64,000 nucleotides of DNA. Source: Hyphococcus sp. Lineage in GTDB: Bacteria; Pseudomonadota; Alphaproteobacteria; Caulobacterales; Parvularculaceae. The stretch covers positions 1 to 64,000 of the forward strand of contig JAJFGA010000043.1 in NCBI GenBank assembly GCA_021776375.1, in the 5' to 3' direction. The translations under genes and the position numbers were made by a program. The notes below the pieces were generated by a model. It had not been told where the DNA came from. It ran no database searches and was given only the letters and a program-made list of their open reading frames with translations. Below, piece by piece: positions 1 to 6,540 of the stretch. Numbering within the stretch: the stretch's first letter is position 1; every line of letters begins with the position of its first letter.

Positions 1-180
1 GACTTCATCGCGGACTTCGTCTTCGACTTCATCCTCAACTTCATCTTCGACTTCGTCTTCAACTTCATCGCGGACTTCGTCTTCGACTTCATCCTCAACT
101 TCATCTTCGACTTCGTCTTCAACTTCATCGTGGACTTCGTCTTCGATTTCATCCTCGACTTCGTCATCTAGATCATCTTC
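1..180. repeat. 60-bp tandem repeat, three units (1-60 and 61-120 differ at one base; 121-180 diverged)
   Basis: Direct comparison of the three sequence lines; encodes the 20-residue unit EDEVEDEVEDEVEDEVRDEV on the minus strand. Confidence 0.95.
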
Positions 181-540
181 AAGCGCATCCTCCGCAGCGT
201 CTTTTGCTGCTTCGCGCGCTTCTTCAGCGGCATCCTTGGCTTCCTCGCGGGCGTCTTCCGCCGCATCCTTGGCTTCCTCGCGGGCGTCTTCCGCCGCATC
301 TTTGGCTTCCTCGCGGGCGTCTTCCGCCGCGTCTTTGGCTTCCTCGCGAGCATCTTCCGCAGCGTCAGCCACATCATCATCGGCAACGTCGTCACTGACC
401 AGGTCGACACTTTGCAGCATCATAGCAATATTTGTGGCGTAGCCTGCTGCGGGTACATCTGCCGAAGCTGGCCCAAAACCTTGAAAACTCAGCGCAGCCG
501 CTAGCGCCACTGTAGACGTACATGATTTCCAATTACGCAT
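1..540 (-). CDS. Secreted repetitive protein, 3' end outside window: signal peptide, 11-residue AEDAREEAKDA repeats, then (EDEV)n acidic repeats
   Basis: Reverse-complement translation from ATG at 540 is open for 180 codons to the window edge: MRNWKSCTSTVALAAALSFQGFGPASADVPAAGYATNIAMMLQSVDLVSDDVADDDVADAAEDAREEAKDA...EDEVEDEVRDEV. AAGGGAG lies upstream of the ATG. Not in the ORF track because no stop falls in the window. Confidence 0.85.
   Translation of the reverse strand, partial: MRNWKSCTSTVALAAALSFQGFGPASADVPAAGYATNIAMMLQSVDLVSDDVADDDVADAAEDAREEAKDAAEDAREEAKDAAEDAREEAKDAAEDAREEAKDAAEEAREAAKDAAEDALEDDLDDEVEDEIEDEVHDEVEDEVEDEVEDEVEDEVRDEVEDEVEDEVEDEVEDEVRDEV
205..369. repeat. 33-bp tandem repeat, about 5 units
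   Basis: ggcttcctcgcgggcgtcttccgccgcatcctt at 238-270, 271-303, 304-336, with variants at 337-369 and 205-237; encodes an 11-residue repeat. Confidence 0.95.
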
Positions 541-745
541 ACTATTATCTCCCTTAGGGTGTGTGTCTCATGGGGTAACGGTTGGCGCGCTGATATTATT
601 CCCAAAATTACAAAAATAATGTGAAATTGAGCTGATGATCTGCCCATCACGGCTGAAGGGCTGCGAACCTCGAAGACTTTATGAACAAGCTGTCATCTTT
701 GAGGGGATGGCGCGATGATTTGCCCCTCAAGCCGAACGGTTTTTT

Positions 746-5919: not shown

Positions 5920-6540
5920 TCAGGCATCTTCCGTGTTTGCGTCTTCGCCTTGTGCGTCTTCAGCAATTGCAGTTTGTGCTTCCTCGTCGAAGAACTCCGC
6001 CTTGGTGTCAGTGGCAGCTTCGGTTTCTGCCTCATCATCGTGATCGTCGCGCGTGTCGAGGACGTTTTCGCCGCGCGCCTGGCGCTCGGCTTCATCGTCA
6101 GAACGGGCGATGTTGATATCGATAGAGGCGTCGACTTCCGGATGGAGGACGATACGAACCGAAAAAACGCCGAGCGATTTGAGCGGCTTAGGCAGTCGTA
6201 CCTGGCCGCGTTCGATTTTCACACCATCGGCAGTCGCCGCATCTGCAATATCGCGTGTTGAAACCGAGCCATATAGACCACCGGTCTCTGATGCTTGGCG
6301 AATGACAACGAAAGCGCTGCCGTTGATTTTCTTGGCGGCGGCTTCTGCTTCGCTCTTGCGTTCGAGATTGTGCGCTTCAAGGTCGGCGCGCTGGGTTTCG
6401 AACGCTTTTTTGTTCATTTCGTTTGCGCGCAGGGCTTTTTTCTGGGGAAGCAGAAAGTTGCGTGCAAAGCCGGGCTTTACGTTGACGACGTCGCCCATCT
6501 GGCCGAGATTTTCGACGCGTTCCAGGAGAATGACTTCCAT
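5920..6540 (-). CDS. rplI: 50S ribosomal protein L9 with acidic C-terminal extension
   Basis: [36 protein letters not shown]. Confidence 0.96.

Follow-up and report, generated by a model that had tools for sequence, protein, structure and literature searches.

The window analysed here, the first 64,000 nucleotides of contig JAJFGA010000043.1 of a Hyphococcus sp. (Parvularculaceae), opens inside a gene for a putative exported acidic repeat protein, read on the minus strand (Table 1). The open reading frame begins at position 540 with the N-terminal sequence MRNWKSCTSTVALAAALSFQGFGPASA|D and is still open at the window edge. An earlier note on this DNA had proposed an ORF at this position, with a signal peptide and about five 11-residue units, and both elements were found. 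The signal peptide was recognized by eye and has no lipobox, and residues 61-115 consist of four exact copies of AEDAREEAKDA and one variant, AEEAREAAKDA. In the DNA, these units form a 33-bp tandem repeat at positions 191-360 with 5.2 copies and 89% matches. The end of the feature, which had been placed near position 181, had to be moved: the reading frame continues to base 1 across a 60-bp repeat coding for 20 amino acids made of VEDE/VRDE tetrads. Sequence to the left of the window edge, the recovery of which had been proposed, is available in the same genome on contig C82, which opens with the same 60-bp repeat (98% identity) and holds the end of the gene, coding for ...VEDEVEDETDGDS and a stop codon, followed by a G+C hairpin and a T-run. 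The assembly break falls inside the 60-bp repeat. Asp and Glu make up about 50% of the mature protein.

Table 1. Features of the repeat-protein gene and its promoter at the left end of the window
Feature	Positions	Strand	Remarks
Gene for exported acidic repeat protein	1-540	-	3' end beyond window; continues on contig C82, L007:1-219 +
Signal peptide, residues 1-27 (ASA|D), type I, no lipobox	460-540	-	sequence inspection
Mature N-terminus, non-repetitive (ATNIAMMLQSVDLVSDDVA)	382-438	-	resembles paralogue GLQLAMLLQSSADPSDDD on C21
Five 11-residue units AEDAREEAKDA (33-bp repeat), predicted amphipathic helix	196-360	-	
Acidic tetrad repeat VEDE/VRDE, 20-residue (60-bp) super-repeats, hydrophobic period ~4.0	1-168	-	
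ECF26-type promoter GGAATA-N16-CGTTA	576-602	-	-35 element starts 62 nt upstream of start codon

Comparison with two other species indicates that the gene is real and not a chance reading frame, because its orthologues are highly conserved and synonymous changes outnumber nonsynonymous ones. The orthologue in genome G007, whose contig also ends inside the repeat, is 98% identical, with 7 synonymous versus 2 nonsynonymous codon changes. For a third species (G027) the identity over the matched segments is 84-86%, and the N-terminal part of its orthologue differs by 35 synonymous versus 13 nonsynonymous changes.

The 11-residue units had been compared with the group 3 LEA consensus in the register AREEAKDAAED, fitting about 9 of 11 positions. 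The fit stands and the register does not: the best one is AAEDAREEAKD, which agrees at 10 of 11 positions if R counts as equivalent to K, a score equalled by 1.2% of unit shuffles. The proposed 11/3 amphipathic helix in an exported protein agrees with an AlphaFold2 model of the complete G027 orthologue, in which the 11-mers form a confident helix (pLDDT ~92) and the tetrad part a low-confidence one (pLDDT ~58), and with a hydrophobic period of 3.66-3.68 in several relatives. Kinship with LEA proteins or apolipoproteins, on the other hand, was not upheld by the Pfam scans, in which LEA_4 was absent at both E<=1 and E<=10 and the Apolipoprotein profile (PF01442) scored 16.1 bits against a gathering cut-off of 90. 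Profiles for PIN_8, V-ATPase subunit E, Ag473, GvpQ and YtxH were also considered and scored far below their cut-offs; such sub-threshold scores are typical of acidic or alanine-rich low-complexity sequence. The repeat protein thus shares with group 3 LEA proteins (LEA_4, PF02987) the tandem 11-residue amphipathic units rich in Ala, Glu and Lys, but differs in lacking the profile match, in being exported and in having period-4 acidic tetrads after the 11-mers. With the 11-mers of apolipoproteins A1/A4/E it has in common the 11/3 helical pattern and a weak profile score, but not the Pro-punctuated 22-mers.

A further difference from the LEA proteins is that the 11-mers are not kept among orthologues. 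They are fewer and diverged in G027; long EEAKEAA arrays are found in the repeat genes of contig C21 of the source genome and of G032; and the proteins of G021, L060 and L061 are composed almost only of tetrads with a hydrophobic residue at every fourth position (xxxV/xxxI). Those of G003 and Amphiplicatus consist mainly of tetrads with little acid, the acidity of these two loci being ~20% with the period-4 pattern retained. Judged from these orthologues, the 11-mer is not the conserved feature of the protein. Membership in group 3 LEA was not supported: the motif fits, but there is no LEA_4 profile match and the 11-mers vary or vanish in close relatives. A role in desiccation was put aside for want of support, the locus context pointing instead to an ECF26-type envelope regulon that includes a subtilase.

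This context is a conserved set of five genes found in relatives, coding for the repeat protein, a 14-stranded outer-membrane barrel, a subtilase, an ECF sigma factor and a membrane anti-sigma factor. The repeat gene is followed by the barrel gene, which is convergent with the subtilase gene, and the latter is divergent from the sigma and anti-sigma genes. The subtilase has intact catalytic D, H and S motifs, and its N-terminus is an acidic period-4 repeat domain of ~100-200 residues. A protein search of 60 relatives found the repeat-protein orthologues adjoining a subtilase with a similar acidic N-terminus. The source genome (G000) carries the full set on contig C21 (L008), where the repeat and barrel genes are inverted, and the gene of the window is, on well-supported comparative grounds, a duplicate of the repeat-protein gene of the five-gene locus. 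Downstream of the C21 set (L008 9088-11694) are genes for a DUF4956 membrane protein, a SdiA-regulated-domain protein and a 351-aa exported protein, none of which adjoined the locus in the further relatives inspected. No paper describing a locus with a subtilase, an ECF sigma, an anti-sigma and an acidic repeat was found in the literature.

The barrel protein (311 aa) was modeled by AlphaFold2 with 14 strands and a pLDDT of 84, and its nearest solved folds are those of the passive porins CymA and OmpG. It matches the BBP2_2/OMP_b-brl profiles and also scores with the EpsL/TIGR03016 families; unlike the barrels of these families it is found outside PEP-CTERM or exopolysaccharide loci, is shorter, with 14 strands, and is linked to an ECF26 sigma and a subtilase. 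The barrel family is present in 18 of 63 genomes of the Parvularculaceae. Among GTDB representative genomes it accounts for 22 loci, mostly in Parvularculaceae MAGs, several of them named Marinicaulis, a genus that is also among those of the biofilm MAGs from an Oslofjord subsea tunnel (PMC11442690). The barrel also occurs in some MAGs of gammaproteobacteria and in the isolates Amphiplicatus metriothermophilus and Sphingomicrobium lutaoense. Plasmid records contained neither the barrel nor the repeat protein of the window.

The subtilase gene adjoins the barrel gene in 18 of the 22 loci, 16 of which also have the sigma gene, and in several of the loci without one or the other the contig ends within the locus. 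In 13 loci the repeat gene immediately precedes the barrel gene. In about 8 of the 22 no free repeat gene was recognised next to the barrel gene, so that the free repeat protein can be dispensed with. At least 10 of 12 loci have a strong hairpin in the gap that separates the repeat gene from the barrel gene. With a hairpin between two genes, the product of the first is usually made in larger amounts, and the position of this one 3' of the repeat gene, before the barrel gene, makes it likely that the repeat protein is a bulk component.

Several variants of this arrangement were observed. In Sphingomicrobium lutaoense DSM 24194 (L070 9279-10828) a gene for an exported protein with acidic/alanine repeats is directly upstream of the barrel gene, in a neighbourhood that has no sigma, anti-sigma or subtilase gene; this cultured strain has the set in a minimal form of two genes. 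In a Robiginitomaculum MAG (L067 10001-11368) the barrel gene is followed by one for an exported EEDEP-repeat protein that runs off the contig end. In G013 (L042/L065, contig C16) a member of the barrel family lies beside a CHASE2-type protein and a FecR-domain-like protein, domain names being assigned by inspection. The C-terminus of this FecR-domain-like protein is a period-4 acidic repeat (DDINDDIRDEIS), and the pairing of the barrel with such repeats is therefore not confined to the ECF26 locus.

The sequence GGAATA-N16-CGTYA, or close variants, precedes sigma, protease and repeat genes of the Parvularculaceae, and some loci have no exact match. The distance to the start codon is 36-39 nt for most sigma genes that have the site and 58-64 nt for repeat genes, a range that includes the 62 nt of the window gene. 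When a PWM was built from 17 promoters of sigma and repeat genes, none from the subfamily of the window gene, positions 578-602 (minus strand) ranked first in the window with 20.4 bits, the next score being 11.6; an equal or better score occurs once per 8 million random positions. The genome has 12 exact sites for the pattern versus 4 in a reversed control. Those before the sigma gene, the subtilase gene, the C21 repeat gene and the window repeat gene are the only ones at genes of the set, and the remaining ones look like background.

HMMs derived from the locus matched three proteins of the Sinorhizobium meliloti plasmid pSymA: the sigma factor RpoE6 (2.6e-49), the anti-sigma factor EcfR6 (1.2e-34) and the protease SMa0142 (6.9e-83), the matches being tied to these names by position and published arrangement. 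The sigma factor of the locus is, by this profile comparison, homologous to RpoE6, which is classed in ECF26 with the consensus -35 GGAATA and -10 GT and has SMa0142 as a target; the divergent serine protease is widely conserved in this group (PMC6180224). The window gene's promoter has the -35 GGAATA and a -10 element containing GT. The serine protease gene is divergent from the sigma gene on C21 and in most relatives, and is absent from the window gene's own position, where it was deleted. The two systems share, besides the homologous sigma, anti-sigma and S8 protease and the GGAATA promoter, the divergent arrangement, a cysteine pair in the anti-sigma and an acidic stretch after the signal peptide of the protease. 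In SMa0142, however, this stretch is a short Asp run only, as it is in rhizobial and Paracoccus homologues, in contrast to the long period-4 domain of the Parvularculaceae subtilases, and no acidic repeat protein was seen in a 20-kb stretch of pSymA. The anti-sigma protein scores just below the cut-off for Pfam RseA_N/zf-HC2, aligns with EcfR6 and has a cytoplasmic anti-sigma domain, a transmembrane segment recognized by inspection and a periplasmic domain. The cysteine pair of the latter is invariant in all 15 sequences, EcfR6 included, and could be a redox or thiol sensor. The ECF26 members RpoE1 and RpoE4 respond to sulfite and, according to preliminary data, RpoE6 does not (PMC3511301).

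On plasmids of Agrobacterium, Paracoccus and Rhizobium (L101 6072-6326, L102 and L103) there are ECF26-type-linked S8 proteases with Asp runs directly after the signal peptide; a small exported Asp-rich protein adjoins the protease in Agrobacterium, and genes for a SLC13 permease and a glycerate kinase are near the protease in all three.

No intact sigma, subtilase or barrel gene was found in the window or on C82. Contig C82 does include two pieces of such a locus: nucleotides 200-307 match the end of the G027 repeat gene, the hairpin and the start of the barrel gene, and nucleotides 387-560 are what is left of an anti-sigma gene, a decayed 3' end with 76% identity to its G027 counterpart. Both are collinear with the locus of G027 except that ~4.3 kb is missing, and this remnant was seen in G000 only, the G007 contig stopping within the repeat. 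Because of this collinearity, the view that the window gene survives from a second, G027-type copy of the locus, which would have lost the barrel, the protease, the sigma and most of the anti-sigma genes, is well supported. Since the ORF is intact and the regulon promoter has been kept, the window gene is most likely transcribed under the sigma of the complete locus on C21. We consider it highly probable that the gene has this origin and belongs to an ECF26-type regulon. It could instead be nothing more than a leftover of the deleted copy, an orphan with unstable repeats and no role, as the adjoining remnant and the lack of a barrel or protease gene in the window and on C82 would allow. Against such a relic are the ORF and promoter, intact in two species, and the excess of synonymous over nonsynonymous changes, and we regard it as unlikely, even if the orphan copy may be on its way to loss.

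Across 12 loci the acidic fraction of the repeat protein and that of the subtilase N-terminus are correlated (r=0.92), and the correlation is r=0.75 when the two low-acid loci are left out. A Mantel test on composition gave 0.67, and the partial Mantel value after accounting for barrel distance was 0.63 (p=0.0002). In this sample of 12 related loci the co-variation could be partly a matter of lineage composition; it is supportive of a functional pairing of the two proteins, not conclusive.

We lean, with moderate confidence, towards an exported acidic helical-repeat protein of an ECF26/RpoE6-type envelope regulon that would work with the co-regulated protease through matching repeats. An envelope signal would act on the two-cysteine periplasmic domain of the anti-sigma, and the freed sigma would induce the protease and the repeat protein, the latter probably made in excess of the barrel because of the conserved hairpin 3' of its gene. 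Beyond the inner membrane, the free protein and the protease N-terminus might co-assemble through their polyanionic repeats, or these repeats might bind a common partner, either the barrel or cationic or unfolded ligands, and the protease would thereby be held in a polyanionic surface or periplasmic layer. That the protein serves the protease as a polyanionic partner in the envelope is an inference from the sequences, and co-assembly itself is put forward tentatively, as something possible rather than probable. A bolder version, in which the xxxV/xxxI tetrads, common to both proteins and co-varying, are a new type of repeat assembly and the two exported proteins polymerise or co-wind by way of matching tetrads under ECF26 control to anchor the protease in a surface layer, appears improbable. 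No role was found for the RpoE6 branch in earlier work (PMC6180224). Two visible parts are new in the Parvularculaceae version, an outer-membrane barrel and an acidic repeat protein that is presumably a bulk component, and its protease has matching repeats; this opens the role of the protease to testing in Amphiplicatus metriothermophilus, a cultured organism that carries the complete locus.

The same features can be read in other ways. The two proteins could be a chaperone and a protease that act against envelope stress: cationic peptides or unfolded proteins would be captured by the acidic repeats and handed over to the co-regulated protease, whose own repeats of the same acidic kind would serve to bind the same ligands. 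The acidic amphipathic repeats common to both proteins and co-varying between them, the intact catalytic motifs and the ECF regulation agree with this; in G003 and Amphiplicatus, however, the acidity falls and the period-4 pattern is kept, so that selection cannot have acted on negative charge alone, and we find this proposal rather doubtful. If the barrel were an exporter, it could carry the repeat protein, and with it the repeat-bearing protease, to the surface, the repeats serving as transport signal or stalk. The adjacency of the repeat and barrel genes in over half of the loci, the 14 strands of the barrel and the period-4 acidic repeats of its FecR-domain neighbour in G013 would suit such a pair. 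The barrel, however, resembles passive porins most closely, has no POTRA or TPR region, and scored 19 bits against the SLAM (SlipAM) exporters, below the cut-off of 22, with no N-terminal TPR domain in its 311 aa; we give this reading little weight.

Least probable of all appears a protectant of the envelope similar to LEA proteins or hydrophilins, with 11-mers that are disordered in water, fold on drying or on membranes and shield envelope proteins and lipids. The fit to the group 3 LEA motif, the confident helix prediction, the export and a plausibly abundant expression speak for it. They have to be set against the missing LEA_4 match, the poor conservation of the 11-mers, a promoter of the ECF26 type and not of a general stress type, and the co-occurrence of the gene with those of the protease and the barrel.

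Elsewhere in the window, an acidic stretch of ~50 residues extends the C-terminus of ribosomal protein L9 (positions 5920-6540, minus strand).
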